This document shows, in pieces, positions 2,849 through 47,540 of a DNA stretch of 64,000 bases. Within the stretch, counting starts at the first letter, position 1, and every line of letters begins with the position of its first letter. The notes under the pieces are model-generated. The model did no database searches. It saw only the letters and a list, made by a program, of their open reading frames with translations, and was not told the origin of the DNA. This DNA is from Nocardioides furvisabuli (lineage in GTDB: Bacteria > Actinomycetota > Actinomycetes > Propionibacteriales > Nocardioidaceae): NCBI RefSeq assembly GCF_021083185.1, contig NZ_JAIGQB010000002.1:1-64000 (forward strand), read 5' to 3'. Both the position numbers and the translations under genes were made by a program.

Positions 2849-3700
2849 GTGGCCTTCTCCGCAAACGTCCTTCGCGTCCTGATCGCGTCTCCTTCCGACA
2901 CCGCCGAACTCCGGGACGCTGTCGAACACGCGCTTCACGAGTGGAACGGCGACAGGGCGGCCACGTCGTCGGTCGTGCTGCTCCCGCGCCGATGGGAAAC
3001 CAACGCGGTCCCGGAATTGACGGGCGAGGATGGCCAGACGGTCATCAACCGCCAACTGGTTGATGAGGCCGATGTCGTAATCGGGATCTTCCACTCGAAG
3101 CTCGGCCAGGAGACGCCGCGGTATGCGTCAGGCACTGCGGAGGAACTGCATGAGGCGAAGGACGCCGGCAAACGGGTCCATGTCTATTTCTCGTCGATGC
3201 CGATTGCCCGCGCGCATGTTGACCCGGAGGCGCTTGCGACGCTGGACGCGTTCAAGAACGAGATCGAGAAACTAGGTCTGTACGGGTCTTTCGACACCGC
3301 AGGGTCGTTGAGGGATCAGGTGAGACGCGCGATCGAGGCCGACATCGTGGCGCTCGATCTGGGTGCACCGAATGACGCGAGAAACCCGGCGAGAGAGGGC
3401 GCAGCGCTACAAGCTCGTGCAGTGAAGGCGGGCTCCTCATACCGGCTGATCCTCCGCAACACGGGAGACGCCGACGCGGAGGACATCTCGTTCGACCTCA
3501 CGCCGACTGGGGGTGACGAGAACTCCGAGGCACCGATGCTCTTGACCGATCCCGGCCTGTTCACACTTCCTCGGCACGGCGGAGAAATCTCGCTTCCGGT
3601 CATCTTGTCGTGGGGGATGGCGTCCCATGTGAAGATCTCATTCAACTGGTCGGAAGCCGGCGTCGCGAAGGCGTCGTCCCACACCGTGTCGTTCTTCTGA
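2849..3700 (+). CDS. TIR/DUF4062-like domain protein
   Basis: 283 residues from a GTG start. The N-terminal half begins with a hydrophobic strand and SPSDTAELRDAV, then DEADVVIGIFHSKLG at about residues 72-86 and SGTAEELHEA at about 97-106. This is the layout of the TIR-like/DUF4062 Rossmann-type domains found at the front of NTPase and defence proteins: strand, SPSD/SSTF loop, helix, then a D-VVIGIF strand and an E-containing helix. The C-terminal half (about 175-283) is a beta-rich domain with no recognised motif. If the domain is an active NADase-type TIR, the glutamate in the TAEE segment would be the candidate catalytic residue; this is inference. It is a single gene with about 145 bp upstream. 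Confidence 0.55.
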   Translation: MAFSANVLRVLIASPSDTAELRDAVEHALHEWNGDRAATSSVVLLPRRWETNAVPELTGEDGQTVINRQLVDEADVVIGIFHSKLGQETPRYASGTAEELHEAKDAGKRVHVYFSSMPIARAHVDPEALATLDAFKNEIEKLGLYGSFDTAGSLRDQVRRAIEADIVALDLGAPNDARNPAREGAALQARAVKAGSSYRLILRNTGDADAEDISFDLTPTGGDENSEAPMLLTDPGLFTLPRHGGEISLPVILSWGMASHVKISFNWSEAGVAKASSHTVSFF

Positions 3701-5783: not shown

Positions 5784-7535
5784 TCAATCGTCGTCGTCAC
5801 CTTCGTCCCAACTCAGCGACACCGCCTCAATCTCGCGAGGCACCCGGCCCTCTCGCAGGTCCGGACCGAAGGCTGTCGTGGTGTCATTGCCGCCGTAGAC
5901 GGCCTCCGGGAAGATGGTCGACTTCTGTACCAGCGCCCGCTTCTCGGCAACCGCGCCCTGCACCGAATGGAAGCGCATGCCGCAGACTTCCCCATCTAGG
6001 CTAAGAGTCGACGCGGTCACGTTGAATCGCACGAGGACGGTGTCTGCCGACAAATTCGCTATGACGGGCAGACTAGCCCGCACCGGAGCAGGGCTCAGGT
6101 CCTGAACATCTCTGTCCTCTTGAGCGGGAGCAAGGTAGAACGAGTACCTGGCGATGACGCGCTCGTCGGTCAACGTCGCAGCGAGGCCCGTGAGAGAATG
6201 GAAAACCTCGGCGTCCGTAACGTCTCTGAGCGAGACCGACTCCCGGGGCCAGCCCTCAATTGTTGTGCATCTGCGCCAACTAGCGACGAATTTGGCGACG
6301 GTGTGCAACGGCACGAACGTGGCGTCCGTCGCGAAACCTGCCCCGTCCGGCTTTCCGTCATCGCCCAACTGAACGATCGTGGAACCTGGTCCGCATGCGG
6401 AGAGGAAGTCGGCGAAGGACCCGAGGTCTTCCATTTTGGTGTCGACGAGAGGGTCGATAAAGACCTCGGTCTCGTGCACACGCTTCCCCTCGACGAGCCT
6501 GGCATGCGAGGTAATCAAGCTGAGCCCCGAGGAGTGAACGTAGGCCCAATGAGTTCTCGTCCTGCGCAGGACGAACTCCGCGGTCACGGAACCGAAGGCG
6601 GACGAGCACTGCAGCTTGACCGACGACTCTGACAGGAACCCCGAAAGTACTGTCGGAGCAGGAAGGTTTCGGAGGTACTTGAGGACTTCGGGCTTCGGGA
6701 CGAGTGCACGAAAGCGATCGGCGCCGTGCTCTATCGAGCCGAATGCCGCATGCACGACCGCGCGCTCCTGCTCCGGAGTCTCGCTCTCGTAGTAGTCAAA
6801 GATGTGGACCGTCTCGACCAACGTCAGTTGGCCCTGAGGGGTCCGCCGGATCTCCACCGACGCCGCCGGAAGGATCCTGCTCAGACGTCTCTCGGCAAGC
6901 CCGAGTCGCATGGTTTCGCTGAAACCGTGGCTCAGGCACGCTCGAAGGTCGGCGTCGAAGGTGTCTTCGTTCCCGCAACGGTCTGCCGTGACGGTCATCT
7001 CCGCGGCTGTACCTGCAAGGAACTCCGTCAGCTCGTCCCCAAATTTCGAGTCAACTAGCCGGTGGTGGACTGACGCGGCTCCTCCTTGGTCGAGCGCGAC
7101 GAGGATGAAGATCAGTGGTGTGCGCGAGTTCAGCAGGTTGCGTGCATCGCCGACATTGAGCTTGACCTTCTTGTCCGATGACGTCGTCGCTCGCACGCAA
7201 CAGCCGACGAGCGTGTTCGCGATGTCGCTCGCTCCACGGCTGTCGTGGTCGAGGTCGATCTGGCACATGAAGTCGATGCCGAAGTCCTCTTCGCACTTCG
7301 TCGCCAGCAGCCCGTGCGCTTCCGCGAACACCCGGAACGCGAGCTCCCCTTTCGTCCCGACGCGTTGCGAGAAGCTGCGGCGCTTACCGCTGCTGCCTTC
7401 GAGACCCTCTGGTCTGCGAGTCGCGACTCGTCGCGTCCTGTCGTCACCGCGCTTTCGTTGGTCTTTGCCCGTGCTCTTGCTTTTGCCCTTGCCCTTGCCC
7501 TTGCCCTTGCTGGCCGAGCCTCGATTCCTTGCCAT
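5784..7535 (-). CDS. DUF4365-domain (PD-(D/E)XK nuclease-like) protein
   Basis: 583 residues. After a Lys/Gly-rich N-terminal tail (about 1-40, partly encoded by a hexanucleotide repeat), residues about 58-190 contain GTKGELAFRVFAEAHG, EEDFGIDFMCQID and a V-Q-K-like core strand region. This is the layout of DUF4365, a PD-(D/E)XK-fold domain in which the E of the first helix, the D of GID and a following strand would form the metal site. The remaining about 390 residues are unassigned, with no transmembrane helix. DUF4365 proteins occur in defence islands and often precede other effector domains. It is transcribed away from the Gabija-like genes. The domain call is solid; nuclease activity is inferred. 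Confidence 0.65.
   Translation of the reverse strand: MARNRGSASKGKGKGKGKSKSTGKDQRKRGDDRTRRVATRRPEGLEGSSGKRRSFSQRVGTKGELAFRVFAEAHGLLATKCEEDFGIDFMCQIDLDHDSRGASDIANTLVGCCVRATTSSDKKVKLNVGDARNLLNSRTPLIFILVALDQGGAASVHHRLVDSKFGDELTEFLAGTAAEMTVTADRCGNEDTFDADLRACLSHGFSETMRLGLAERRLSRILPAASVEIRRTPQGQLTLVETVHIFDYYESETPEQERAVVHAAFGSIEHGADRFRALVPKPEVLKYLRNLPAPTVLSGFLSESSVKLQCSSAFGSVTAEFVLRRTRTHWAYVHSSGLSLITSHARLVEGKRVHETEVFIDPLVDTKMEDLGSFADFLSACGPGSTIVQLGDDGKPDGAGFATDATFVPLHTVAKFVASWRRCTTIEGWPRESVSLRDVTDAEVFHSLTGLAATLTDERVIARYSFYLAPAQEDRDVQDLSPAPVRASLPVIANLSADTVLVRFNVTASTLSLDGEVCGMRFHSVQGAVAEKRALVQKSTIFPEAVYGGNDTTTAFGPDLREGRVPREIEAVSLSWDEGDDDD
7483..7510 (-). repeat. Hexanucleotide tandem repeat inside the DUF4365 gene
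   Basis: About 4.7 copies of ttgccc (plus-strand reading) encode alternating Lys-Gly near the N terminus of the DUF4365 protein. The unit length of 6 means that slippage would lengthen or shorten the basic tail by two residues and keep the frame. Confidence 0.75.
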
Positions 7536-8392: not shown

Positions 8393-10174
8393 GTGCACAT
8401 CTCTCGGCTTCGCATTAGAGACTTTCGCGGGTGGAGCGTCCTCGACCTCCATCCTCGCGGGCATGTGCTCGTGATCGGAGAACCGCGTGCGGGCCGTTCC
8501 GACCTGGTGGCAGCTCTGCGACGGGTCCTCGACCCACGCTCAACGCGCAGCCAGCCCTCTACCGCCGACATTCGGCAGAGTCAGGTGCCTAGTGCCGTCG
8601 GAGCGGAACCGACTACTTCATTGGCTCCGTTTGCCGAAGTTGAGGTGACGCTGGTCGGTCTTCCCCACGCCGTGGAGCAGGAGGCCGACGGCGCCCTCGA
8701 GCCGCTGCTCAGTAACGGTCTTGTCGATGTGTCCGGCAACGCGGCACCGAGTGCGCCCTTGGGTCTTCGGCTTGCCTACCGAGTTTCTTACGACGCGACG
8801 ACTGACGAAGTCGAGCATCGTGTCTACTACCCGAGCCTAAGCGATCCGGCGGCAGACAAGTATGTCCGCGTGCCCGCCGCGATCAGGGCCCTCCTGCCGG
8901 TGGTTTTCCTGGACCCGACACGTCCGCTGCAACTTCGCCCGGAGGGGCTCCTCCGTCAGTTGGTGTCAGACGCAGACCCGGTCGCAGCGACCGCTGCCTT
9001 CCAGGCTTTGGAGGTCGATGTAGTGGCTGCCGCAACGACGCTCTCAGCCAATCCGTCCATCGAGGGCGTTCTCGACGCACTCGTCGCTGACGCCGGCCCC
9101 GCTCGCCGAATCGGCGATGCTCCTGTGTCTGCGAAGGACATCCGATTCCTACCGGATGGCGGATCCTTGGCCGGTCTGCTCCGCGCATTCCAGCCAGCGT
9201 TGCGACTCGACGACGCCGGATCGCTGCCACTGGAGAGCCACGGTTCAACTACCGTCGCGATTCTGTCGGCGGCCGAGGCGTTGCTACTGGCGGCATCCAC
9301 CCACGGTGCGATCATCGTTGGCGACGATGTCGGCGAAGGTCTCGATGGACCCACCACAGAGCACCTGGCGAACGCGCTACGCGGCGCTGCGTCGCAGACG
9401 TGGCTCACCACGCGTCGTGCGGACGGGGCACGCGCGTTCGAGACGTCCGAGTTCGTCAGACTCACGCGTCACACGGGTCAGCGTCTGGCGCACCAGGTTG
9501 TTCCGCCCGCCGATCGAAAGGAAGCAGGTCTGCATCGGCACATCCAGTCGCAACTTCTCCCTGCCCTCACTGCTACGGCGGTCGCAGTCTCGGAAGGACG
9601 TCACGACTTGTCGGCCCTCAGTGCTGCGGACAGAAGGCGCTCCACGCCTGCCCTTCCACTCGCTGCGCACGGTGTCCGGCTGATCACTGCGGATTCCGGT
9701 TCGGGCGGCGGAACAGGCCAGATTCCTCAGGTCGCCAAGCTGGCGCACCAACTCGGGTACCGCGTCGTCGCAATGGTTGATGGCGATCCGGCGAAGACCG
9801 CCGGAACGGTCCTTTCCGATATCGAGGCTGCGTGCGATGCACTTGTCAGGCTGCCCGACAGCATGGCAATCGAACGCGCAATCCTCACAGGAGCGACAGC
9901 GACGCAACTACGTGTAGCCGCGTCTCAGGTCTTCCCGATGTACGGCCTGGCTGACCCGACACTGGGTAAGTCTGACCCGGACGTGTCCAATGTTGTGATG
10001 AAGGTGCTGCACAGCAAGGGTCTGCACGAACAGTTCCTCGGCGCGTTGCTCGAAGAGACGGGCGCCCTGCCGCCGATCGTCGTCGCCGCGCTCGACGCGA
10101 CTGCGACCTGCTCGCAACCTTCCTACTCGGGGGCGAAGCGCATTGATCTTGCCGACCCGACCGCGACCGTCTAA
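8393..10174 (+). CDS. Gabija GajA-like OLD-family ATPase/TOPRIM nuclease
   Basis: 593 residues from GTG 8393, six bases after GGAAGG. The N terminus (HISRLRIRDFRGW) is the usual start of SMC/RecF-like ABC ATPases of the OLD family. The P-loop region GEPRAGRSD (29-37) has Arg where the Walker A Lys is expected, so ATP binding may be altered. IIVGDDVGEGLD near residues 306-317 is the likely Walker B/D-loop. The C-terminal TOPRIM domain is well marked by EGRHD (about 401-405) and DGDP (463-466), the metal-binding Glu and Asp. Known GajA is about 580 residues and acts as a sequence-specific nickase regulated by nucleotides in Gabija anti-phage defence. The next gene, 5 bp downstream, encodes a UvrD-like helicase, as in Gabija. 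The Walker A substitution is the odd point. Confidence 0.7.
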   Translation: MHISRLRIRDFRGWSVLDLHPRGHVLVIGEPRAGRSDLVAALRRVLDPRSTRSQPSTADIRQSQVPSAVGAEPTTSLAPFAEVEVTLVGLPHAVEQEADGALEPLLSNGLVDVSGNAAPSAPLGLRLAYRVSYDATTDEVEHRVYYPSLSDPAADKYVRVPAAIRALLPVVFLDPTRPLQLRPEGLLRQLVSDADPVAATAAFQALEVDVVAAATTLSANPSIEGVLDALVADAGPARRIGDAPVSAKDIRFLPDGGSLAGLLRAFQPALRLDDAGSLPLESHGSTTVAILSAAEALLLAASTHGAIIVGDDVGEGLDGPTTEHLANALRGAASQTWLTTRRADGARAFETSEFVRLTRHTGQRLAHQVVPPADRKEAGLHRHIQSQLLPALTATAVAVSEGRHDLSALSAADRRRSTPALPLAAHGVRLITADSGSGGGTGQIPQVAKLAHQLGYRVVAMVDGDPAKTAGTVLSDIEAACDALVRLPDSMAIERAILTGATATQLRVAASQVFPMYGLADPTLGKSDPDVSNVVMKVLHSKGLHEQFLGALLEETGALPPIVVAALDATATCSQPSYSGAKRIDLADPTATV

Positions 10175-10179
10175 ACGCC

Positions 10180-11841
10180 ATGCCGTACCAGCCATCCGTC
10201 GAGCAGCAGGACGTCGTCGACGAAGGCGCCCCAGTGGTCGTTGTCATCGGCGGGGCCGGATGCGGCAAGACGACGACCGCTGCCGCGGCCGCATCTAAGC
10301 GCCTCGGCGACCAAGAACTCGCCAGACAGGCAGCTCGAGCAGCAGCTCCGGTCGGGACGCTCCCGGTGCAGACCGATCTAAAGCGAGTCCTCTTCATCTC
10401 GTTCTCACGGACTGCGGTCAGCCAGATCGTCGACCGAGCCGCCGGCGTGCTCGGCGCCCACCAGCGCAACGTTGATGTTGTGACCTTTCACGGCCTGGCG
10501 TGGCGGATCCTCAACAACTTTGGCCGCTATTACGGATACCCGCATCCTTTGCGAGTTCAGTCTGCCGCCGAGACCGCCCTTAGCGCCGCTACATTCCCCG
10601 GCCTGACTTACGCCCAGCTCGTGCCCGAGGCAACCAAACTACTGAACGTTCCAGCGGTCAGGGATTACTACGAGCGGCGCTACGGGACTGTCATCTGCGA
10701 CGAGTTCCAGGACACCAGTGATGCCGAATGGGCGTTCGTGCAGTCGGTGGCGCCGTCCGGTCAGCGGATCCTGTTGGGCGACCCGAATCAGTGCATCTAC
10801 GCCGGCATGAAAAACATCGACCCTCACGCTCGGGTAGCAGAGGCGGCACGTCTTACTGGAGCGGTCACCTTGACCTTGCCTCCGCTAAGCCACCGCGACC
10901 CGTCAGGTGTTCTTCCCGCAGCCGCGCTGGCCGCCATGGAACGTCGGTTCGACGATCCCGCGATTTCGCATGCCGTGACCAGCGGCCGCATCGTGCTGCA
11001 TCGCGCACCGACGCAGGACCTAGCGGACGGCGTTGCGCATGTCGTTGCTGCAGAGCGTGCCATGAACAAGTCAGTGAGCATCTACACCCACACCCATGCT
11101 GCGACAGCCGAGCTGTCAACTCGGCTCGCGTCCGCTGGGATCGTCCACGAGCAGGTCGGATTCACCGAGTCCTTCGGAGACGCGATCCAGGCGCAATACG
11201 AGATTCTGGGTTCCGTTCTCGGCGAGATCCGCGGCGGTCGCAAGGCACTTGCGGTTTACGTCCAGTCAATCAGTCGTGGCCGTCAGGAGAAGCGGGTCCC
11301 TGCCGCCATCGTCGATAGGACCATGCCGAGGTTTGAAGAGGCCATCAAGGAGGTCATTCGAAGCCTGAGGGAAGTCGTCGGCCCTCCGCCAGACCTTGAC
11401 GAACTGGTCCTTCGTATCGGCCGCATCCACAAGACGCTGTCGTTCCCCCGAGGCGAAGAGACCTGGCTAGAAGCCAACCGCCAGCTGCGACGATCGCTCC
11501 GACTGCTCGAACGCGGTGGCACCTTTGCCGACGTCGGTGCAGAAGTCGAGGAACTCCGCAGCTCGACGCTTGTTGGTTTCCGAGCAAGCAGGCAACGCCC
11601 GGTTCAACTCATGAATCTGCACCAGACGAAGGGTCGGGAATCCGACGCAACCGTCCTAATGCTGCAGCCAGACGAGTACCACGGTCCTGAAAGCGAACCA
11701 TTTGCCACCGGCTCTCGCGTGCTTTACGTTTGCTTGACCCGTGCACGAGAACGCGCTCACATCGTGCTACCGGCCGACCGCACCGTTCATGCGCTGTGGT
11801 CACCGTTTGTCGCAGCCTGCGACTTCGCGCTTCTCATCTAG
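10180..11841 (+). CDS. Gabija GajB-like UvrD/Rep-family helicase
   Basis: 553 residues, superfamily 1A helicase. Walker A is GGAGCGKT (24-31), motif II is DEFQD (174-178), motif III is GDPNQCIYAG about 25 residues later, and motif V is near LHQTKGRESDATV (about 484-496). The C terminus carries LYVCLTRARERAHIV, the usual motif VI region of UvrD enzymes. The length is slightly above that of known GajB (about 490). It starts 5 bp after the OLD/TOPRIM gene, so the two are almost certainly co-transcribed. In Gabija, GajB senses DNA ends or strand-unwinding products and activates GajA. A stand-alone repair helicase is possible, but the pairing argues against it. Confidence 0.75.
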   Translation: MPYQPSVEQQDVVDEGAPVVVVIGGAGCGKTTTAAAAASKRLGDQELARQAARAAAPVGTLPVQTDLKRVLFISFSRTAVSQIVDRAAGVLGAHQRNVDVVTFHGLAWRILNNFGRYYGYPHPLRVQSAAETALSAATFPGLTYAQLVPEATKLLNVPAVRDYYERRYGTVICDEFQDTSDAEWAFVQSVAPSGQRILLGDPNQCIYAGMKNIDPHARVAEAARLTGAVTLTLPPLSHRDPSGVLPAAALAAMERRFDDPAISHAVTSGRIVLHRAPTQDLADGVAHVVAAERAMNKSVSIYTHTHAATAELSTRLASAGIVHEQVGFTESFGDAIQAQYEILGSVLGEIRGGRKALAVYVQSISRGRQEKRVPAAIVDRTMPRFEEAIKEVIRSLREVVGPPPDLDELVLRIGRIHKTLSFPRGEETWLEANRQLRRSLRLLERGGTFADVGAEVEELRSSTLVGFRASRQRPVQLMNLHQTKGRESDATVLMLQPDEYHGPESEPFATGSRVLYVCLTRARERAHIVLPADRTVHALWSPFVAACDFALLI

Positions 11842-12413: not shown

Positions 12414-12464
12414 CGCCCGTCCCAGGCTGGCTTAGGACGGGCGTCACCAGGACGGGCGTTTTTT
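12414..12464 (+). terminator. Rho-independent terminator with duplicated 3' arm
   Basis: The arm cgcccgtcc (12414-12422) can pair with ggacgggcg at 12435-12443 or with an identical copy at 12450-12458. The second copy is followed directly by six T (12459-12464). The two choices give one hairpin with and one without an adjacent U-tract. It lies 29 bp before the primase start and ends any upstream transcription; it could also act as an attenuator for the conjugation operon. Confidence 0.6.
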
Positions 12465-12492
12465 GGTGCCTTGGATGTGGACAGTCGACTGC

Positions 12493-13419
12493 ATGGAACA
12501 ACAAGCACACCAGCACCCATCGGCGCGGTGGGATCAGCAGCTGTTTCACTGGCCCGCCCAAGCACCGGACTTGGCGACGGCGGCGGCGCAGGTCGCAGGC
12601 CGCGGTATCCCAGTCTTTCCGTGCATCCCCCGTGGCAAGCAGCCCCTTACCGTCCACGGCTTCCGTGACGCCAGCACTGACACCGACATCGTCAGGTCAT
12701 GGTGGCGGCGATGGCCTGACGCCAATCTCGGTGTCCCGACCGGTTCGGCCAGCGGCGTCGACGTAGTCGACGTGGACGTCCACGGCGCCCGGTCCGGGTT
12801 CGGTGCCTTCGAGCGTGCGCGAAGGGCTGGATTAGTCGAGGGATGGGCGTGGCTGGTCCGCACTCCCTCCGGCGGCCTCCACGCCTACTTCCTTCGCACC
12901 ACCGCTACAGACCAGAGGTCGTGGCAGGTGCCGAGCCAGCACATCGACTTCCGCGGCGACGGCGGCTACATCATCATCCCGCCCTCCTGCGCGCGCACCG
13001 ACGGAGGCGTCGACCGCCGCTACCAGCAGATCGCGGTCGCCGAGCACCACCGGCCCACGCCGGTCAACGCCTCGGGGCTACGGCGGCTCCTTGACCCGCC
13101 CAAGCCGCTGCGCCCGTCCACGGCCTCGCCCTCGATCGGCAGGGCCCCCGACAAACTGGCCGCGTGGGTCGCCTCGCGTCCTGAAGGCGCTCGCAACGGT
13201 GGGCTGTTCTGGGCGGCGTGCCGGATGGCTGAGGACGGACACGACCTCGGCAGCACGACCTCGCTGCTCGGTCAGGCAGCTCATGCTGCAGGACTGCCAG
13301 AGCCCGAGACACTGACCACCATCCGATCTGCCTTCCGGATCGTCGCGCGAGTAGCGCCAGCGCCGCCGCTGCGGCCGCCGTCACGCCCTACAAGAGCGGT
13401 TGAGGGGGTGGGACTGTGA
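12493..13419 (+). CDS. Bifunctional DNA primase/polymerase (Prim-Pol) N-terminal domain protein
   Basis: 308 residues from ATG 12493 (an in-frame ATG at 12463 overlaps the terminator and is less likely). Residues about 20-200 match the Prim-Pol domain of archaeo-eukaryotic primases: GIPVFPCIPRGKQPLT, a DASTD segment, NLGVPTGSASGVDVVDVD with the metal-binding Asp residues, then TPSGGLHAYF with the catalytic His and FRGDGGYIIIPPS. The C-terminal third is an alpha-helical region with ARNGGLFWAACR, typical of the small helical domain that follows. It lacks a helicase domain. In integrative elements such proteins support replication or priming after transfer. It heads a packed operon and overlaps the next gene by GTGA. 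Confidence 0.85.
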   Translation: MEQQAHQHPSARWDQQLFHWPAQAPDLATAAAQVAGRGIPVFPCIPRGKQPLTVHGFRDASTDTDIVRSWWRRWPDANLGVPTGSASGVDVVDVDVHGARSGFGAFERARRAGLVEGWAWLVRTPSGGLHAYFLRTTATDQRSWQVPSQHIDFRGDGGYIIIPPSCARTDGGVDRRYQQIAVAEHHRPTPVNASGLRRLLDPPKPLRPSTASPSIGRAPDKLAAWVASRPEGARNGGLFWAACRMAEDGHDLGSTTSLLGQAAHAAGLPEPETLTTIRSAFRIVARVAPAPPLRPPSRPTRAVEGVGL

Positions 13420-13787
13420 ACACCCACGCGCCCTACCAACGCCGTCTCGGTCGCGCGCTTCCTGAACCCATGCCGACGGCCGTACCCGACCCTGCTCCGA
13501 ATGCCCTCGTGCTTCACGGCGACCCCTCACTACTCCAGCCAATCCAGTCGGCTGCGGAGCCGGTCCGACCGACGATCACGTGGGTCCGACCCAGCGAGGT
13601 CTCCACGCTGATCGGGGCCCGATGGGCAGGCCGCGGAATCAACCTCCAGGACGAACTGACTCGACGCGCTCGACGCGCCCCAGCGGCTGCCGCAACCAAG
13701 GCAGCCAGACGCCTGCCCCATCCCGTTCAAGGCCAGTCGCTGCCCTCCGCGACGACGGCCACCCCACCGGAAGGACTCGGACTGTGA
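13416..13787 (+). CDS. Unknown small protein of the conjugation operon
   Basis: 123 residues from a GTG that overlaps the primase stop (GTGA). It is Pro/Ala/Arg-rich with TWVRPSEVSTLIGARWAGRGIN in the middle (about 50-72) as the only complex segment, so part of the protein is probably disordered. Its existence is supported by coupling on both sides: its own stop overlaps the next GTG start in the same way. No domain recognised. Confidence 0.6.
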   Translation: MNTHAPYQRRLGRALPEPMPTAVPDPAPNALVLHGDPSLLQPIQSAAEPVRPTITWVRPSEVSTLIGARWAGRGINLQDELTRRARRAPAAAATKAARRLPHPVQGQSLPSATTATPPEGLGL

Positions 13788-14629
13788 ACAACCCGATCTA
13801 CGCCACCGCAGAAGGACTTCGACTCCTGCTGCTCGACCTCGCCTACGCCGGACCCGGTGCATGGGAGACCGACCCCGACGCCGCCGAACTGATGGCGTAC
13901 GCCATGGACAAGTACGGCGCACTCGCTCACAAGTACGGGCTGGAACCCACAGACGCCGCGACGTACGCCTTTGAGATCATGAACGCCCGGGCGACCCGGC
14001 TGGCCGAGGATCCGTGGGCAGTGATCACCCACGCGGTCCACCTGAGCCTCGTCTATGAGTCGCGGGCCCGAGGGATGCTCTGCTCAACCCAGCAGGCGCG
14101 CCACAGCTCCGGCTCCGATTACCACGACGCCGAACGGTTCAGTGAGCGCGACGACGAGCTTGCGAACTACCACCCGGCCTTCCAGGTCGAGGACGACCTC
14201 AGCACGATCGACGATCCGGGGCAGGAGTCCGTCGAGGACGAGCCGACGAACGCCTACTTCGCCCTCGACCAGGCGATCCAGTTCTTCGTCGAGCTGGGGT
14301 GGTCCCGCCGCACTGCACGGCTCGGGTTGGAGTACATCGCCGCCCGCCTGATCCGCACCGGCACCCGCCTGAGCGCCTTCGAGTCGTTGCGGCGCGACGG
14401 GAATGGACCCGCGCTCCTGGACGTCGATCACAAGTCCTGGCTTGCCGTCCTCCGCGGTGTGCTCGGAAACCAGCATCCCGATCGCTCTCACACCAGCGAG
14501 GGGCGCGGGATCCTGCTGCGTCTGATGTCCGGCGAGGGTCTCGACGAGCTGTTCGAGGACGCGGCACTCGCCCGACTCATCGAGCACGCAGCGCCCGAGT
14601 ACACGTCGGCGAGCACGAGCCGTGTCTGA
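13784..14629 (+). CDS. Unknown protein of the conjugation operon
   Basis: 281 residues from GTG 13784, overlapping the preceding stop by GTGA; the reading frame stays open upstream but this coupled start fits best. The protein is mainly helical and acidic (SERDDELANY, VEDDLSTIDDPGQESVEDEP). It has no signal peptide, membrane segment or recognised motif. Its position between a Prim-Pol and a ParB-like protein suggests a maintenance or replication accessory, but that is only context. Confidence 0.65.
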   Translation: MNNPIYATAEGLRLLLLDLAYAGPGAWETDPDAAELMAYAMDKYGALAHKYGLEPTDAATYAFEIMNARATRLAEDPWAVITHAVHLSLVYESRARGMLCSTQQARHSSGSDYHDAERFSERDDELANYHPAFQVEDDLSTIDDPGQESVEDEPTNAYFALDQAIQFFVELGWSRRTARLGLEYIAARLIRTGTRLSAFESLRRDGNGPALLDVDHKSWLAVLRGVLGNQHPDRSHTSEGRGILLRLMSGEGLDELFEDAALARLIEHAAPEYTSASTSRV

Positions 14630-15656
14630 CAAGGGGTTCGTCGAGCTCGAACGACAGATCGACTCGATCGTCGTCGGTGAGCGTCACCGTCGGAATCCCG
14701 GTGACCTGACCAAGCTGACGGAATCGCTCACCCGCGTTGGCCTCCTTCAACCGGTCACCATCACCCCCGACGGCTACCTCATCTGTGGCTACCGTCGATT
14801 GGCGGCCGCCAAGGAGCTCGGCTGGCAGACCCTTCGCGTCTGGGTGCGCTCGGGCATCAGCGACGAGCTGACCCGGTTGCTTGCCGAGCGCGACGAGAAC
14901 ATCACCCACCAGCCCCTCACCCCCGACGAGGCAGCCAAGCTCTACCACGAGCTTCTCGACCTGGTGAGGGAGGACGCACGGCGCCGACAGGCGGCCACCC
15001 AGTACGGGGCGAAGAGCGATCAATCCGCAGGTCAGCACGGTCATGCTGAATCAGCATCACCGGGGCCGGGGTCCTTGGGATCGGCCCGTCGCCGGGCCGC
15101 TGAGATGGTCACGGGCAAGGCGTCCTACGCCCGGCTCGAGCAAATCCTAGAGATGGAACGCATCGCCGCGGACCGGTCCCAACCCGAGACGATCCGCCAG
15201 GTTGCGACCGACGAGCTCGGCGTGATCCGCAACGGCGGTCCGGTCGATCCTGGCTACCAGCGAGTCAAGGCAGCGCAGCGCGTTGCAGCACGGATGACCT
15301 CGACCCAGGACTCGGACGTGGACGCCCTCACGGACGAAGCCCTCGCCGAGGCGAAGGCTGACCACAGACGTCGGGTCCGCGAGAACCGCACCAAGCGGGC
15401 GTCGGCGGCGGCCACCGCCAAGCGATCCACCCGCGCGTTCGTCCTGACGTGGGCGGAACTCGACGGCTGGTCCAAGCGGTACGACGTCGACCAGGTGGCA
15501 CGCGAGGTGAAGCCGGACGACTGGACCCTCTTCCTCCGCGTCGTCGACGAGACGATCGCGTTCGTCGAGGCGGTGACACGCGCGCGGGAACACGCGGCCA
15601 CCTCACACACATGCGCTACCCGACACGTTCCGAAGTTGTCCGCCGACGACACCTGA
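14622..15656 (+). CDS. ParB-like nuclease-domain protein
   Basis: 344 residues from GTG 14622, overlapping the previous gene by 8 bp. The N-terminal part has the ParB/Sulfiredoxin fold: SIVVGERHRRNPGDL, LTRVGLLQPVTITPDGYLICGYRRLAAAKELGW (the Box II-like G-x-R-R-x-x-A-A segment at about 55-62). A helical middle portion (about 85-200, with a possible HTH) and a charged, Arg-rich C-terminal part follow. No ParA partner is visible in the window. In mobile elements such proteins act in partition, in regulation or as transcription factors. The fold is clear, the role is inferred. Confidence 0.8.
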   Translation: MSDKGFVELERQIDSIVVGERHRRNPGDLTKLTESLTRVGLLQPVTITPDGYLICGYRRLAAAKELGWQTLRVWVRSGISDELTRLLAERDENITHQPLTPDEAAKLYHELLDLVREDARRRQAATQYGAKSDQSAGQHGHAESASPGPGSLGSARRRAAEMVTGKASYARLEQILEMERIAADRSQPETIRQVATDELGVIRNGGPVDPGYQRVKAAQRVAARMTSTQDSDVDALTDEALAEAKADHRRRVRENRTKRASAAATAKRSTRAFVLTWAELDGWSKRYDVDQVAREVKPDDWTLFLRVVDETIAFVEAVTRAREHAATSHTCATRHVPKLSADDT

Positions 15657-16291
15657 TCATCTCCGGCCTCGCGCTGGGCTCCTTGTCGGTCGCCCTCGTC
15701 ATCTACTCGCTGCAGGTACGTCCCTCGCCGGCGACGCCGGGCACGACCGGGGTCGCACCCGCAACACCCCGGGCGATGACGACCATGGCCCCGGTCTCCC
15801 CCGTCCGCGACCTCGCCCCGTTGCGCCCGACGAGCGAGCCCGACGCGTTCGCCCGCCTCGTCGCCGACGCCATCTTCGAGTGGAACACGGCAACGCTCGT
15901 CGGCCGGTCCGATCACGTCCAACAGCTCGTCGCCGTGAGTGACCCCACGGGTGAGTCCTCCCCCGGTCTGGTCTCTGACCTCGACAACTACCTGCCCACC
16001 GAGGAGACCTGGGCCGAGCTGGCCCAGTACGAGACCGCGCAGTGGCTCGCCATCGAGTCGGTGGTGACACCCTCGCTGTGGGACGAGGCAGAGGCCCAAG
16101 CAGGCAACGAACTGCTTCCCGGCACCACCGCCTTCACGATCGAGGGCACTCGACACCGCTCCGGAATCTGGGAGAGACAACCCGTCGCCTCCGAGCATGA
16201 GGTTGCCTTCACGGTCTTCATCGTGTGCGCGCCGTCCTACCCTCAGTGCCACCTGCTGCGCCTCTCGAGGCTCGATGAGCCGCTGGACTGA
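15611..16291 (+). CDS. Single-pass membrane protein, possible VirB8/TcpC-like T4SS component
   Basis: 226 residues from ATG 15611, overlapping the ParB-like gene by 46 bp in another frame. A short basic N terminus is followed by one membrane segment (about residues 14-35), a Pro/Thr/Ala-rich linker and a soluble outer domain of about 150 residues with DAIFEWNTATLVGRSDHVQQLV. The topology (short cytoplasmic tail, one TM, NTF2-sized extracytoplasmic domain) is that of VirB8/TcpC bitopic scaffold proteins, and it sits directly before the cell-wall peptidase gene. Sequence similarity to VirB8 is not evident, so the assignment is inference. Confidence 0.6.
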   Translation: MRYPTRSEVVRRRHLIISGLALGSLSVALVIYSLQVRPSPATPGTTGVAPATPRAMTTMAPVSPVRDLAPLRPTSEPDAFARLVADAIFEWNTATLVGRSDHVQQLVAVSDPTGESSPGLVSDLDNYLPTEETWAELAQYETAQWLAIESVVTPSLWDEAEAQAGNELLPGTTAFTIEGTRHRSGIWERQPVASEHEVAFTVFIVCAPSYPQCHLLRLSRLDEPLD

Positions 16292-16293
16292 GC

Positions 16294-17373
16294 ATGGCCA
16301 AGATTGCGCTCATCACCGTCCTTGCCCTCCTCTTCGGGCCTGCGATCCTGCTGCTGAGCCTTGGCCTCGTGCTCAACCCGGCCGCCCAGGCTTCATGCCT
16401 GACCGCCACTTCCTCGCTCCCGTCGACGGGCACGCCCGCAGGCACCGAGCCAGAGACCTCACGCGTGGTCCTCCCGCTCCCGGCCGGGTCGTGGACACGC
16501 TCGAGTGGCTTCGGGATGCGCGTCCACCCGATCACTGGCGAACGCAAGCTCCACACGGGAGTGGACCTGTCAGCCAATGCCGGCACACCCATCGTCGCCG
16601 TTGCCGACGGACGCGTCGTGTCGGTCGGGCCCGCCGTCGGATACGGACACCTCATCGTGATCGAGCACACCGTCGGTGGACAGCCGGTGGCAACCGCGTA
16701 CGCCCACATGCACGCCGAAGGCATCCACGTCAGCGTCGATGACGCGGTCACCGCTGGCCAGCACATCGCAGACGTCGGATCGGACGGCTACTCGACCGGC
16801 GCCCACCTGCACTTCGAGGCCCGACCCGGCGGAGCCAACGCTGCGCCCATCGACCCCGAGCCGTGGCTGAGCGCGAACGGAGCAGCCGAAGTGAACGGCA
16901 GCGAAGACAACAGCTGTGACGCGACCACGAGCGGACCGGCGACGCCCTACCCAGGAACCAACCCGAACGGCCTGGTCGACGACCCCACGACCGACGGGCT
17001 CATCACCGAACAGACTGCCCACGTCCTCGCCCAGGTCCGGGCCGCCTTCCCTGACACCGCCTGGGCATGCTGGTCACAGCGCCCCGGCAATGACTCCGAG
17101 CACGAGGTCGGACGCGCCTGCGACGGGACGTTCGGCAACTCGATCGGCACGGCTGCCACCGGGCCCGCCCTCGACCTCGGATGGAAGGTCACCAACTGGC
17201 TCAAGATCAACGCCGGCAAGCTCGGCGTGGAGTACCTCATCTGGCAGGGACGCATCTGGTCGGTGGCACGCAGCAGCGAGGGCTGGCGTTCCTACGACGG
17301 TGGCGGGATGCACGACCCCACCAGCGTGACCGGCGGGCACTTCGACCACCTGCACTTCACGGCGGCGAGCTGA
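16294..17373 (+). CDS. M23 peptidase of the conjugation system
   Basis: 359 residues, beginning 2 bp after the previous stop. An N-terminal membrane/signal segment (about 3-30) precedes an M23 metallopeptidase domain: SGFGMRVHPITGERKLHTGVDLS with zinc ligands H87 and D91, and GAHLHFEARPGG with H171 and H173. A second region of about 130 residues (about 225-359) contains GVEYLIWQGRIWS and ends GGHFDHLHF. This resembles the ARB_07466-like/VanY-type C-terminal domain that often follows M23 in actinobacterial T4SS proteins. The enzyme would cut peptidoglycan locally to let the transfer channel cross the wall, like VirB1-type or TcpG enzymes. Confidence 0.88.
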   Translation: MAKIALITVLALLFGPAILLLSLGLVLNPAAQASCLTATSSLPSTGTPAGTEPETSRVVLPLPAGSWTRSSGFGMRVHPITGERKLHTGVDLSANAGTPIVAVADGRVVSVGPAVGYGHLIVIEHTVGGQPVATAYAHMHAEGIHVSVDDAVTAGQHIADVGSDGYSTGAHLHFEARPGGANAAPIDPEPWLSANGAAEVNGSEDNSCDATTSGPATPYPGTNPNGLVDDPTTDGLITEQTAHVLAQVRAAFPDTAWACWSQRPGNDSEHEVGRACDGTFGNSIGTAATGPALDLGWKVTNWLKINAGKLGVEYLIWQGRIWSVARSSEGWRSYDGGGMHDPTSVTGGHFDHLHFTAAS

Positions 17374-17425
17374 CGTCGGGAGCCCCCCTCGTTGCGGGCT
17401 GGACCTGTTTGAGCACCTGCCAGGC

Positions 17426-17716
17426 GTGAGCATCACGACAGCCCTTCTTCCACTGGTTGGTCCCGACTTCGGTGCGGTCGGCGGAGCAGGCGACCTGCGG
17501 ACGATCGTCGGTGCACTGCTCACCTACGGCCTCGTCATAGCCGTACTCATGGTGATCGCATGCGCAGCAACATGGGCGATCGGATCGGCACAGGGAAGCT
17601 GGCCGACGGCCAGCAAGGCAAAGACCGGGCTCTACGTCGCCCTCGGCGGAGCCGTACTCATCGGGGGCTCACTCGCCTGGGCCAACTGGCTCCTCTCCAT
17701 CGGCGCATCTCTGTAG
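17426..17716 (+). CDS. DUF6112-like small membrane protein, copy 1 (VirB2/TrbC-like)
   Basis: 96 residues from GTG 17426. Two hydrophobic helices (about 28-52 and 68-92) are separated by a short basic loop (SKAKTG). This is the layout of VirB2/TrbC pilin-like proteins and of the DUF6112 family found beside SCO6880-family proteins in actinobacterial T4SS loci. A second related gene follows at 17814. It is probably a membrane ring or pilin-like subunit of the channel. Confidence 0.7.
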   Translation: MSITTALLPLVGPDFGAVGGAGDLRTIVGALLTYGLVIAVLMVIACAATWAIGSAQGSWPTASKAKTGLYVALGGAVLIGGSLAWANWLLSIGASL

Positions 17717-17813
17717 CCACCCTCTAGCGCGCCCGGATCTCCCGCGTTGCCTCCGAACCGGCGTCGCGCACGCACCTGCACTGCAAGACCCTGACCCCTG
17801 CCCAGGAGGAATC

Positions 17814-18113
17814 GTGCTCTACCGCGCCCCACTGCTCCCCTACGACATCACCATCAGTCCCAACTCCAACGGCCTGCCGGGCATCGGACAGCTACGAGAC
17901 GTCGTCGGCGCCGCCATGACCGTCGGCCTCATCCTCGCGGTGCTGGCCCTCATCATCTCCGCGATCGTGTGGGCTCTCGGCGCAAACTCCTCCAACCCGC
18001 ACCTGGCCGGACGAGGCAAGGTCGGCGTCCTGGTGGGCCTCGGCGCCGCGATCATCACCGGCGCGTCCGTCACCCTCGTCAACTTCTTCTGGAACGTCGG
18101 CCAGTCGGTCTGA
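17814..18113 (+). CDS. DUF6112-like small membrane protein, copy 2 (VirB2/TrbC-like)
   Basis: 99 residues from GTG 17814, just after AGGAGG at 17804-17809. The N terminus ITISPNSNGLPGI followed by LRDVVGAAMTVGLILAVLAL is the common opening of DUF6112 proteins. Two membrane helices (about 31-53 and 72-94) flank a basic loop. It is a paralogue of the gene at 17426-17716; both have the order TM, basic loop, TM and similar length. It lies 28 bp before the VirB6-like gene. Confidence 0.75.
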   Translation: MLYRAPLLPYDITISPNSNGLPGIGQLRDVVGAAMTVGLILAVLALIISAIVWALGANSSNPHLAGRGKVGVLVGLGAAIITGASVTLVNFFWNVGQSV

Positions 18114-18141
18114 CGCGCGTCTGAGACGAGAGGACGACACG

Positions 18142-19506
18142 ATGGTCGACGTCTGCGACATACCCGTGATCTCAGGTGTCTGCGACGTGGCCGGAGAAGC
18201 GGCCGGCTCCCTGGTCTCGGCTCCGTTCGACTACCTCGCGCAGTCCATGGGGAACGCCGCCGGCTGGATGTTCGAATCGGTCTGGAGGGTCTTCGACTCG
18301 ACCACTATGGTCGACGTCACCAGCAGCCAGTACACCAAGGTCTACAACATCCTGTTCGGCGTCGCGGTCTTCGTGATGCTCGGCTTCTTCATGCTCCAGG
18401 TCATCGGCGGCATGCTCCGGAGAGAACCCGCAGCCCTGTCCAGAGCCGCCCTCGGCATGGCGAAATCGGTCCTCGGTTCGTTCGTGGCGCTCACCCTGCT
18501 CGCCACCGCCCTGGAGCTCACCGACCAGCTGAGCGTCGGCATCGTCAAGGCCGCCGGGACCAACATGGAGGAGATGGGCGACCGGATCATGCTCCTGGTC
18601 GCAGGCCTCAGCGCCATCAGCCTTGCCGCACCCGGAGCGGGAGCCATCGTGACCATCTTCATCGCCGGCCTCGCCATCGGAGGCGCGGTGATCGTCTGGA
18701 TCAGCCTGCTCGTACGAAAGGCACTACTTCTCATCGCGATCGTCTTCGCACCGATAGCGCTTGCAGGGGCGAGCTGGGACCACACACGCGGCTGGATCGG
18801 CAGGTGGGCGGGCTTCGTCCTCGCCCTCATCCTGTCCAAGGTCGTGCTGGTAGTGATCTTCCTGCTGGCGACCGCGCAGGTGTCCGCCCCCATCGACTCC
18901 GACCTCGCATCGGCAAGCGAGCCGATCGCCGGCGTCGTGCTCATGCTCATGGCCGCCTTCGCCCCGTACCTCACCTACAAGGCGATCAGCTTTATGGGCT
19001 TCGACATGCACCACGCGATGTCGGCCGAACAGGAGACCAAGTCGGCGATGAACCGCCCCATGCCCATCCCCCTGAACCGACAGTCCGGGTCGACGCCCCG
19101 CAAGGTCCTCGGTGGCGGACCACAAGGCGGCAGTCCGACGACGGGTGGCGGAGGCTCCTCGCCTGCCCCAGCCGCAGCTCCTGGGTCTCGCCGGGGCGGG
19201 GCTCGAGGCGGGGCTGGAGGCGGAGGTGGAGGCGTCGCGGGCGGAGGCTCAGCGGCCGGAGGCTCAGCGGGCGGGGTGTCGAGCGGGCGGACAGGAGGCG
19301 CGGCCGGGGGCGGCGTCGCAGCGGGACTGGCGGTCGCGAAGCAGTCCTTCTCGGCTGGCGTCAGCACCGGCCGCTCGGTGGGCGCTGCGGCTACCCAACA
19401 GATCGATGCCGCCAACCAAGCACCACCCAGCCCTGCGGCACCGTCGCCACCTCACGTGGCTGACCCGGTGCCCGCGTCGAGTGCCAAGGAGGGCCGAGAG
19501 CGATGA
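18142..19506 (+). CDS. TrbL/VirB6-like polytopic membrane protein
   Basis: 454 residues. After an N-terminal segment of about 65 residues come some six hydrophobic helices (about 72-92, 113-132, 148-168, 171-192, 196-215, 228-250, 262-285). An unusually Gly/Ser/Ala-rich tail of about 150 residues (about 300-454, with long runs of Gly) follows. This is the arrangement of TrbL/VirB6 inner-membrane proteins of type IV secretion systems. The low-complexity tail is probably disordered and cytoplasmic or surface-exposed. Its stop overlaps the next start by ATGA. Confidence 0.8.
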   Translation: MVDVCDIPVISGVCDVAGEAAGSLVSAPFDYLAQSMGNAAGWMFESVWRVFDSTTMVDVTSSQYTKVYNILFGVAVFVMLGFFMLQVIGGMLRREPAALSRAALGMAKSVLGSFVALTLLATALELTDQLSVGIVKAAGTNMEEMGDRIMLLVAGLSAISLAAPGAGAIVTIFIAGLAIGGAVIVWISLLVRKALLLIAIVFAPIALAGASWDHTRGWIGRWAGFVLALILSKVVLVVIFLLATAQVSAPIDSDLASASEPIAGVVLMLMAAFAPYLTYKAISFMGFDMHHAMSAEQETKSAMNRPMPIPLNRQSGSTPRKVLGGGPQGGSPTTGGGGSSPAPAAAPGSRRGGARGGAGGGGGGVAGGGSAAGGSAGGVSSGRTGGAAGGGVAAGLAVAKQSFSAGVSTGRSVGAAATQQIDAANQAPPSPAAPSPPHVADPVPASSAKEGRER

Positions 19507-20966
19507 GTACTGGTTCAGCAGGGCGCGACTACGACCTCGCGCCGGTGAAGTTCTCCCGCCTCACCCGTCGCGGAGTCCTGCTAGGTCTCTCCGGCTCACA
19601 GCTCGTCGTGGTCGGCATGGGTGCCGTCACACTGGTCGTCGCGCTGTACCTGGGCGGCGGCGCCCTCCTGCTGTACGTCGCCCCGATGCTCCTCCTGTGT
19701 GCCGCACTCGCGTGGGTCGGCATCGGTGGCCGCAAGCTGGTCGAGTGGCTCCCCGTAGTGGCGCGCTGGGTGTGGCGCTCGACCGGGGGCCAGCTGGTCT
19801 TCCGACGCCGGATCGTGAGACCGCGTCCTGTGGGGACTCTGGCGCTTCCGGGAGATGCTGCGCGGTTGCGGCAGTGGCTCGACCCCGAGAGCGGAGCCGT
19901 GATGATCCACGACCCGCACCGCTCAACACTGACGGCAATCGTCAGCGTCACCCATCCGGCATTCATCCTGCTCGACCCGATCGAGCAACAACGTCGCGTG
20001 GCCAGCTGGGGCCGTATTCTGGCAACCGCCTGTCGATCCGGACGGATCGCGTCCCTGCAGGTGATGGAGAGGACACTGCCCGACTCGGGCAGAGGGCTGG
20101 CGCAGTGGTGGTCCCAGCACGGTGTGCAGGACGACTCGTGGACGTCCACGACGTACGCCGAACTCATCGACCGTGCCGGTCCCGCCGGTGAACGGCACGC
20201 GAGCACCGTCTCGATCTCGCTCGACATGAAAGCTGCTGGTCGTGCGATTCACGCCGCGGGCGGGGGCAACCGCGGCGCTGCCGCAGTGCTCCGCCAGGAG
20301 ATGTCGACGACCACCGCTGCCCTGAGGGCTGCCGACCTCGCACCGTCGGCGTGGCTGGAGCCTGGCGACCTGGCGGTGATCCTGCGTTCGGCATACGACC
20401 CGGTCGTCGCCGGAGCGCTCGAACGCCACGGTGAGCTCGGTCGTGACCTCGCCGCGGCCGGGCCAGTCGGTGTCACCGAGCAGTGGTCAAGCGTGCGCAG
20501 CGACTCAGCCCACCACTGCGTGCTGTGGGTCAGCGAGTGGCCGCGATCCTTGGTCTACCCCGGGTTCCTCGCGCCCGTGCTCCTGTCCTCGGGCGTTCGA
20601 CGCACCTTCACGCTGCTCTACACCCCGATGCGCACCGATCAGGCCGCGCGCGACATCCGCAAGAAGAAGACCGAGTACGTCTCCGACGCCTCGCAACGTC
20701 AGCGGATCGGCCAGATCGAGGACGCCCAGCAGTCCGCGGAGTACAACGACGTACTCCAGCAGGAGGCGGACCTGACCGCAGGTCACGGCATCCTGCGCAC
20801 CACAGGACTGATCGCCGTCAGCGCCGCGGACCTCGACGAGCTCGAGCGCGCCGTGGCTCACCTCGAGCAGGCAGCTATCCAGGCCTCCTGCGAGACCCGT
20901 CGGCTCTGGGGCCAGCAGGCGCAGGCGTTCTCGGCAGCAGCCTTACCGCTGTGCCGAGACGTGTGA
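19503..20966 (+). CDS. SCO6880-family (PrgI-like) conjugation protein
   Basis: 487 residues. It begins with about 35 soluble residues including KFSRLTRRGVLLGLSG, then a pair of membrane helices (about 40-58 and 60-80), the PrgI-type anchor, and a large cytoplasmic domain to the end. The sequence reads like the SCO6880 family of Streptomyces and related actinobacteria, always found between TrbL-like and VirB4-like genes. In effect it is the membrane-anchored N-terminal part of a split VirB3-VirB4. The following gene supplies the ATPase. Confidence 0.85.
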   Translation: MSTGSAGRDYDLAPVKFSRLTRRGVLLGLSGSQLVVVGMGAVTLVVALYLGGGALLLYVAPMLLLCAALAWVGIGGRKLVEWLPVVARWVWRSTGGQLVFRRRIVRPRPVGTLALPGDAARLRQWLDPESGAVMIHDPHRSTLTAIVSVTHPAFILLDPIEQQRRVASWGRILATACRSGRIASLQVMERTLPDSGRGLAQWWSQHGVQDDSWTSTTYAELIDRAGPAGERHASTVSISLDMKAAGRAIHAAGGGNRGAAAVLRQEMSTTTAALRAADLAPSAWLEPGDLAVILRSAYDPVVAGALERHGELGRDLAAAGPVGVTEQWSSVRSDSAHHCVLWVSEWPRSLVYPGFLAPVLLSSGVRRTFTLLYTPMRTDQAARDIRKKKTEYVSDASQRQRIGQIEDAQQSAEYNDVLQQEADLTAGHGILRTTGLIAVSAADLDELERAVAHLEQAAIQASCETRRLWGQQAQAFSAAALPLCRDV

Positions 20967-21088
20967 GGGTGGCGCGCGACCGACTGGCGACGGGCTTCCA
21001 GACACACCTCCTTCCCGACCACATCAAGTAGGAGGCGCCGATGCCCACGTTCGAGGACCTCGCGTTCGATCGGCGGCTCTCGCTGTGA
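20963..21088 (+). other. Two tiny translationally coupled ORFs before the VirB4-like gene
   Basis: Between the SCO6880-family gene and the ATPase gene lie a 22-codon ORF (GTG 20963 to TAG 21029-21031, overlapping the upstream stop as GTGA) and a 15-codon ORF (ATG 21041, with AGGAGG just upstream, to TGA 21086-21088). The second encodes MPTFEDLAFDRRLSL and its stop overlaps the ATPase GTG start. They may be coupling leaders that control ATPase translation, or chance readings. Confidence 0.3.
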
Positions 21089-22572: not shown

Positions 22573-22626
22573 CCGGCCAGATGGTGTCGGGGACGCACCT
22601 GTCGTCTGAGAGACAGGAGTCGTCCG

Positions 22627-23685: not shown

Positions 23686-24224
23686 GCATGCTGAACGCCG
23701 CCGCCTCCTACCGCCGCGAGGACCGCGCAGCCCCACGTGCGGCACAGCGTGTTCCCGTCGTCATGCCGTTGGTCGACGTCCGGGTCCACGTCGACGGAAC
23801 CGTGGCCGTCCGACTCGATCGAGAGCCGTACGCCACCGACACCCCGCTGCACCGGGAGGACCTCCAGCGACTGCTTTGCAAGCTCGCCACTGATCTCGAG
23901 ACGCCGATCCGTGTCGAGGTGCGGGAAGCAGACGGCTCGGCATTCACCGACATCGTCACACCCGGGCCTCAAGACGTACGACCGCCCGATCCTCCCCGGC
24001 CAGCCACCGACCCACCTGACCAGACGACTGGCGAGACGGCCAGTGGACGGTTCCTCCCCCTCGAGGACGTCGCTGTGGCTGTCGTCGTCGCGCACCAGAC
24101 CGCGAGCGAGGACGGCGTGGCCACCCTTCGCCTCCCGCCTGCCCTCCTTGAGTCCCACGCTGGTCGACTCGTGCTCGTGGGACAGCAGTCCGGAGCCGTC
24201 GTGGTGAGCGGCGTCTCGGGATGA
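23682..24224 (+). CDS. Unknown protein coupled to ArdC-like and TraD-like genes
   Basis: 180 residues from ATG 23682, overlapping the ArdC-like stop (ATGA) and itself overlapped by the coupling-protein start at 24221. The first half has a short beta-rich region with VRVHVDGTVAVRL and a helix DLQRLLCKLATDL, followed by a Pro-rich linker and a second beta-rich part. No recognised domain. The tight coupling indicates a real transfer-operon gene. Confidence 0.65.
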   Translation: MSMLNAAASYRREDRAAPRAAQRVPVVMPLVDVRVHVDGTVAVRLDREPYATDTPLHREDLQRLLCKLATDLETPIRVEVREADGSAFTDIVTPGPQDVRPPDPPRPATDPPDQTTGETASGRFLPLEDVAVAVVVAHQTASEDGVATLRLPPALLESHAGRLVLVGQQSGAVVVSGVSG

Positions 24225-35326: not shown

Positions 35327-35338
35327 GAAGGACCCACC

Positions 35339-47533: not shown

Positions 47534-47540
47534 TACTCGG

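Follow-up and report, generated by a model that had tools for sequence, protein, structure and literature searches.

A pair of adjacent genes on a contig of Nocardioides furvisabuli (assembly GCF_021083185.1, contig NZ_JAIGQB010000002.1, positions 1-64,000 of the forward strand; this whole stretch of 64,000 nt is henceforth called the window) probably constitutes an anti-phage module of the Gabija kind. It falls in a separate actinobacterial clade; there, the nuclease subunit has a rebuilt ATP site, which apparently arose once and was then kept by selection, while the gene layout stayed ordinary. The upstream gene encodes a GajA-like OLD protein with ABC-type ATPase and TOPRIM nuclease domains and the downstream gene a GajB-like, UvrD-type superfamily 1 helicase (Table 1). 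The changes in the ATP site, the intact TOPRIM acids and helicase motifs, the strict pairing of the two genes, their co-divergence and their horizontal spread are established at the level of sequence comparison. The clade is a natural test of Gabija nucleotide sensing, in that both ATP-site residues that were mutated in GajA of Bacillus cereus are replaced in genes that are under selection and have spread between genera.

An earlier note on this DNA, made from the letters of the sequence, had pointed out that the P-loop of the OLD protein (GEPRAGRS, followed by D) is without the Walker A Lys. This was correct and applies to the clade as a whole: a comparison over actinobacterial relatives found Arg at the position (Arg35) in 28/28 non-redundant clade members, with all six Arg codons in use, versus Lys in 57/57 controls covering the site. 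Because it is shared by all 28 members via six codons and occurs in 0/57 controls, the Arg is due neither to chance nor to sequencing error. Beyond what that note had described, the switch His, the Walker B motif, and the D-loop are altered in the same 28 members, in which Arg341, D311, D312, and D318 are each invariant (28/28); the clade pattern for Walker B and D-loop is DD[FV]G[DE]xLD, whereas most OLD controls have EEPE..LHP or close forms. The glycines of the P-loop and Ser/Thr36 are retained (28/28). With near-copies included, Arg35, Arg341, D311, D312, D318, and the TOPRIM acids E401, D405, D463, and D465 were found in 37/37 rows, and the partial loci L012/L014/L046, L045, and L049-L052 have Arg at the site as well, L052 within an altered motif (GVPRADRS). 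GajA numbering was obtained by counting residues where L056 and L053 are aligned to chains of B. cereus GajA, which places K35 at the P-loop Lys and H320 at the His of STHS; when the window OLD is aligned with these two loci, its R35 and R341 fall at the places of K35 and H320. The conserved ATP site of characterised GajA (K35, H320) was thus found in none of the 28 members, all of which have Arg at both positions, and the pair was therefore filed as a divergent variant and not as canonical Gabija; this site does not enter into the definition of class 2 OLD, which goes by gene context.

The RecF protein encoded in the same genome (L059; VLDDVFAELD, 268.4 bits to the RecF model, cut-off 172) has a DDxxxxLD Walker B/D-loop and no switch His, both as in the OLD protein of the window, so that the Walker B change need not mean a dead site; judged from these motifs, an altered site is indicated more strongly by the changes in Walker A and the switch. 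RecF keeps the Walker Lys, whereas the window OLD has Arg there, adds a TOPRIM domain, and reaches only 20.5 bits against the RecF equivalog profile.

As controls, 67 OLD-like loci were taken, most of which came from searches with PADLOC GajA across the phylum and class; some are OLD-like ATPases and possibly not true GajA. After eight identical open reading frames (ORFs) were dropped, 59 different ones were left, of which L067 is the window itself, giving 58 controls. These have Lys (57) or no sequence (1) at the Walker A site, and His (56), Gln (1, L090), or no sequence (1) at the switch site. A drift from Lys to Arg driven by high GC was rejected, as nearly all controls belong to the same phylum and still keep Lys. 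In a midpoint-rooted tree of the 28 clade rows and 23 controls, the clade formed one side of a branch with 100/100 support and a stem length of 1.94, and one Lys-to-Arg change was needed; this single change could owe something to long branches (the stem itself and nine long control branches that were flagged). The rows nearest the clade (L008, L053, L054, and L060, joining at 96/91) all have UvrD-like sequence directly downstream or fused. The earlier note had named unrelated OLD proteins that never pair with UvrD helicases as the outcome that would speak against Gabija; the nearest Lys-type rows are UvrD-paired too. Among the other 19 tree controls, UvrD-like sequence downstream was also found in L103, L104, and L107, its absence at the rest being weak evidence because these loci end shortly after the gene. 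The ratio of nonsynonymous to synonymous substitution rates (dN/dS) was 0.08-0.22 in 10 of 11 pairs, one pair being saturated and two pairs that include the window being near synonymous saturation; by these ratios, the OLD gene is under purifying selection.

Relatives of the OLD gene are sporadic. Among 394 genomes drawn from the class, five had a match at an E-value of 1e-10, the window's own included, and among 195 genomes (own plus relatives) the only close match was in the own genome, three further matches being distant (28-31% identity). Four plasmid records were matched by tblastn with the OLD protein, and a plasmid search with the helicase gave nine records, six of which are partial matches outside the known loci; no OLD relatives were found in phage records and viral contigs. 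A scan of genome contigs with the single protein found no OLD relative, and an alignment scan of genome contigs gave 36 loci, 35 labelled as actinobacterial and one from a bin labelled Bacillota (L030), possibly a binning error. Since the patterns of the alignment scan include GxP[RQ]A and DD[FV]G, this set is biased towards the clade; neither pattern fixes Arg35. In the whole-protein searches, which are free of this bias, all eight loci with at least 33% identity (L005-L007, L009-L013) carry Arg; L008, which follows at 25%, carries Lys. All searches pooled yielded 36 full-length OLD genes besides the window, 27 of them at <90% identity (28 with the window). Repeats (L001, L014-L016), L007 (same record as L038), and partial or broken loci (L003, L012, L045, L046, L049-L052) were left out of the clade counts, and the Lys-type L002, L004, and L008 served as controls. 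Nocardia cyriacigeorgica, Microlunatus parietis, Haematomicrobium sanguinis, a Microbacterium plasmid, and a Nanopelagicales bin share a pair-bearing block (about 7.66 kb) at 99.7-99.9% identity; two more carry it at 97-98%. By reading, the right edge of this block lies in or just after sequence resembling the 3' end of a tRNA; ARAGORN found no whole tRNA at that edge. In the window, the GC content is 0.61-0.66 over 8-12 kb versus 0.69-0.74 from 49 kb on, and the low GC around the pair is in keeping with acquired DNA.

The two genes were found together throughout: a UvrD-type helicase gene lies on the same strand directly downstream of the OLD gene in the window and in 36/36 relatives (near-copies included; 27 non-redundant). 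Both frames are open and full length in the window, with five bases between the OLD stop and the helicase start; in the 35 loci where a helicase start was found, it overlaps the OLD gene by four bases (29 loci) or one base (5), or follows after an 8-base gap (1). The helicase of L013 has masked bases, and in L009, L010, L011, L030, and L036 the helicase frame reaches the end of the available sequence or comes close to it. OLD and helicase identities co-vary (20 loci, Mantel r 0.97, 0/5000 permutations as high). Among encoded proteins of at least 150 aa, only the OLD and helicase families recur in all 26 representatives. No conserved third gene was found, six neighbours in the window being without relatives near the other loci; a positive control found the OLD in 37/38 and the helicase in 32/38 other loci. 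The next largest clusters (14 and 10 loci) seem to be antisense frames that cover the two genes.

In the TOPRIM domain, the catalytic Glu and the DxD motif are in place, E401, D405, D463, and D465 being present in 28/28 members. Glu494 is likely a further metal ligand, its equivalence to E508 of Burkholderia pseudomallei OLD (BpOLD), like those of T506 and K562 considered below, resting on alignment by eye with PMC6755086. Within residues 421-491, the domain of the window OLD carries a glycine-rich insertion (SGSGGGTG) that matches FtsZ (clade profile, E 5.8e-5); G439 and G440 of the insertion are invariant in 24 rows, and it is absent from six Lys-type OLDs that were compared. The likeness to FtsZ is probably convergent, and the FtsZ matches of the single OLD protein, which are weak and cover residues 416-492 only, were rejected as family evidence.

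Profile searches and structure prediction agree with the assignment to OLD proteins of the GajA kind. In the PADLOC library, which comes without cut-offs, the best model for the OLD gene was GajA (PDLC00086, E 4.3e-21) and that for its partner GajB (PDLC00104, E 1.1e-43), and GajA models were matched by 8/8 members of alignment A1. Pfam gave a clear UvrD helicase for the partner and sub-threshold matches for the OLD gene (AAA_29, E 6.5e-4; OLD-like_TOPRIM, E 0.055), which is why the latter is regarded as divergent. The single-chain AlphaFold2 model of the OLD protein (pLDDT 85.8) had GajA 8u7i as its best Foldseek match (E 5.6e-18, TM 0.52), and a VIA comparison gave Z 22.4 to TsOLD 6p74, the highest of the list, and 17.8-20.5 to GajA chains over residues 1-573, in line with an ABC-type ATPase plus TOPRIM architecture. 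A phmmer search of the single OLD protein against solved structures found no GajA chain up to E 1. For the helicase model (pLDDT 88.9), UvrD was the first Foldseek match (E 3e-18) and GajB 8sm3_B ranked 28th (E 4.9e-13). The earlier note had described a Gabija-like pair of OLD/TOPRIM and UvrD-like helicase genes 5 bp apart and had proposed a search against GajA and GajB profiles. Both models were matched, the ORF boundaries agree, the motifs EGRHD and DGDP lie at residues 401-405 and 463-466, and the name is upheld by PADLOC, by the Foldseek result for the OLD model, and by the helicase partner in 36/36 relatives.

Published work on GajA bears on what the altered residues may do. In B. cereus GajA, K35A is reported to leave cleavage and ATP inhibition unchanged, and H320A to keep cleavage and to lift part of the inhibition that ATP exerts on GajA alone (Cheng et al. 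2021, PMC8136825). The earlier note had suggested that the missing Lys may alter nucleotide sensing: a changed response of the clade is plausible, mainly via the switch His to Arg, but the argument from the Lys alone is weak, because K35A altered neither property, and on this analysis the change of the switch His is the one that matters more. The helicase site has been proposed as the nucleotide sensor (PMC10822852), and reported accounts of Gabija compete, with activation by nucleotide depletion sensed by the complex on the one side and licensing by unprotected DNA ends on the other (PMC12407980).

Under the reading favoured here, the OLD subunit would form a GajA-like scaffold whose TOPRIM domain would cut DNA, whereas its nucleotide site would hydrolyse ATP very poorly or not at all and would not be nucleotide-gated as that of B. 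cereus GajA is. The helicase would be the working ATPase: it would load and move on invading DNA and license its cleavage, and the pair would thereby act against phages. ATP bound to GajA is reported to keep the TOPRIM domain closed (PMC12796447), and this would be the step altered in the clade. A bolder version, which we hold only tentatively, is that the lineage was freed from nucleotide gating, the ATP site having become a fixed, non-hydrolysing, Arg-rich pocket, with the helicase and the state of the DNA ends alone deciding on cleavage or, bolder still, with that role passing to a new site for a ligand, for instance the glycine-rich insertion in the TOPRIM domain. If members of the clade defend and cut with no inhibition by nucleotides, the Gabija principle would not depend on GajA sensing nucleotides.

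Several observations weigh against this picture. RecF is an ATPase despite its DD Walker B and the lack of a switch His, so the one change that clearly speaks against hydrolysis is that of the Lys, and replacement of a Walker A Lys by Arg can leave ATP binding intact. At the T506 position of BpOLD, 21/24 rows of alignment A2 have Ala, and no invariant equivalent of the class 2 OLD K562 was found in these 24 rows, both by eye. The helicase frames of L006, L026, L034, L038, and L044 are interrupted or short, and UvrD, Rep, and AdnB structures are closer to the helicase model than GajB is. In VIA, SMC and RecF ATPase heads scored 15.8-19.0, almost at the level of GajA, so that the ATPase part alone does not single out GajA; the clade profile matched GajA chains among solved structures at E 8.6e-5 over residues 1-63 only and behind FtsZ. 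From the literature, H320A in the whole Gabija complex is reported to give no relief of inhibition and to abolish defence (PMC10822852), mutants in the ATPase domain of canonical GajA are reported to lose phage defence (PMC12407980), and ATP hydrolysis by GajA is disputed (no in Table 1 of PMC10568477, yes in PMC10822852). As the published mutant results pull different ways, the nucleotide response of the clade is not readable from sequence.

That the pair is an ordinary Gabija with a working ATP site, in which Arg35 takes over phosphate binding, a RecF-like Walker B and D-loop provide hydrolysis, and nucleotides still restrain the nuclease, is considered rather unlikely. It would account for the retained P-loop glycines and Ser/Thr36 and for the resemblance of Walker B and D-loop to RecF, and it agrees with the persisting ATP inhibition of K35A GajA (PMC8136825) and with the reported dNTP inhibition of LsGajA of Ligilactobacillus salivarius, which is described as lacking N31, K35, and T36 (PMC13304284). 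Two residues that are near-universal in the controls, the Walker A Lys and the switch His, are replaced in every member, however, and the lethal effect of P2 Old is reported to be lost with K37A or H332A (PMC7049728). An OLD subunit that has turned into a regulator or a platform for DNA ends, cutting little itself and leaving the effector role to the helicase, would fit the variable equivalents of K562 and T506, but the four TOPRIM acids do not vary, nor does E494, and purifying selection acts on the gene, which makes this improbable.

The pair might also serve in host DNA repair rather than defence, given its RecF-like Walker B and the report that OLD proteins such as Cran1 can work outside defence (PMC12796447). 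This too has a low probability: the genes are sporadic (the five class genomes above, and no close match in the 194 others), they reside on plasmids and in near-identical mobile blocks, and defence genes, the Shango set of the window included, are among their neighbours. Lastly, the partial or broken relatives (L012/L046, L045, L049-L052) and several interrupted helicases could suggest a decaying copy in which Arg reflects drift in a dead ATPase domain; with Arg kept via six codons, dN/dS well below 1, and full-length open frames in the window, this is very improbable.

Compared with known systems, the pair is like the Gabija GajA-GajB of B. cereus VD045 (PDB 8SM3, 8JQB, 8X5I) in gene order, UvrD-type partner, and TOPRIM acids, and by the models it would share the OLD ATPase-TOPRIM fold of this GajA over residues 1-573; it differs in K35 and H320 (both Arg), in Walker B (EE to DD), and in the D-loop (His to Asp). 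LsGajA, compared by description only, likewise lacks K35 but is said to be without N31 and T36 too and is still inhibited, and no clade-wide Arg is described in the available part of that report (PMC13304284). Class 1 OLD proteins (TsOLD, P2 Old) have the fold in common with the window OLD (the VIA match to 6p74) but by definition no helicase partner, unlike the window and all 36 relatives. In Robbsia andropogonis, WP_320534192.1 (L008), which is among the rows nearest the clade, also unites OLD and UvrD, but as a single chain of 1192 aa with a standard P-loop (GSNNVGKS); this fused Gabija lies on plasmid p3 (L008 6001-9579). No description of an Arg P-loop in GajA or of this actinobacterial clade was found among the titles and abstract openings of the matches listed, and the unnamed OLD clades U1-U11 reported in PMC12796447 may contain it.

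Table 1. Features of the gene pair and related elements (window coordinates unless a locus is given).
Feature	Position	Strand	Remarks
gajA-like OLD gene (ABC-type ATPase + TOPRIM nuclease domains)	8393..10174	+	GTG start, 593 aa
P-loop G29-E-P-R-A-G-R-S36	8477..8500	+	Arg35 at the place of the Walker A Lys (K35 of B. cereus GajA)
Arg35 codon CGT	8495-8497	+	Arg in 28/28 non-redundant clade members
Walker B D311-D312 and D-loop D318 (DDVGEGLD)	9323..9346	+	RecF-like; most other OLDs EEPE..LHP
Switch/H-loop R341-R342 (TTRR)	9413..9418	+	R341 aligns with H320 of B. cereus GajA (THS)
TOPRIM motif E401-G-R-H-D405	9593..9607	+	E401, G402, D405 invariant, 28/28
TOPRIM DxD D463-G-D465	9779..9787	+	Both Asp invariant, 28/28
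E494, likely further metal ligand (E508 of B. pseudomallei OLD)	9872..9874	+	Invariant, 24/24 rows of alignment A2
gajB-like UvrD-type superfamily 1 helicase gene	10180..11841	+	ATG start, 553 aa
Helicase motif I GGAGCGKT	10249..10272	+	Walker Lys kept; K30, T31 invariant, 22/22 rows of alignment A3
Helicase motif II DEFQD	10699..10713	+	Invariant, 22/22 rows of A3
Block of about 7.66 kb	L032 3852-11512; L033, L034, L038, L048		Pair + D12-class DNA methylase (seen in L033)
Shango-like set SngA (E 2.7e-93), SngB (E 3.7e-181), SngC (E 1.7e-271)	39872-47000	-	PADLOC; next to tRNA-Val

To survey the surroundings of the pair elsewhere, nine large neighbours were chosen by size at seven out of eleven listed loci and scanned. 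Good matches were to type I restriction (L017), type I methylase (L020), type IIG (L029), and GmrSD-like (L040) proteins, so that defence-type genes stand at 4/7 of the other loci looked at; L027 gave a weaker match, the L039 neighbour is a TrwC relaxase, and the L018 neighbour had no PADLOC match. In the window, a 583-aa protein encoded beside the pair (5784-7535, minus strand) has a sub-threshold DUF4365 match (E 0.0086) and no relative at other loci. A DUF4062 protein matching PDC-S60 (2849-3700) and a DEDDh exonuclease matching PDC-S48 (29899-31485) were also found, as were an SbcD-like phosphoesterase and a large SbcC-like ATPase (34157-38773) with PADLOC matches to mad3 and LmuB. Prim-Pol, ParB-like, M23 peptidase, and TraG/TraD coupling protein genes at 12463-26005 belong to a conjugative element. 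Outside the part that matches the SngC profile, the SngC-like protein carries an RNase_T exonuclease domain. The 3' end of the tRNA-Val with its terminator (47539-47612) has a 92% copy on another contig (L126 8328-9623) beside a phage-type integrase gene, which is possibly the far end of the island; two large genes beyond this copy read like a restriction-modification pair, with no NCBIfam match.

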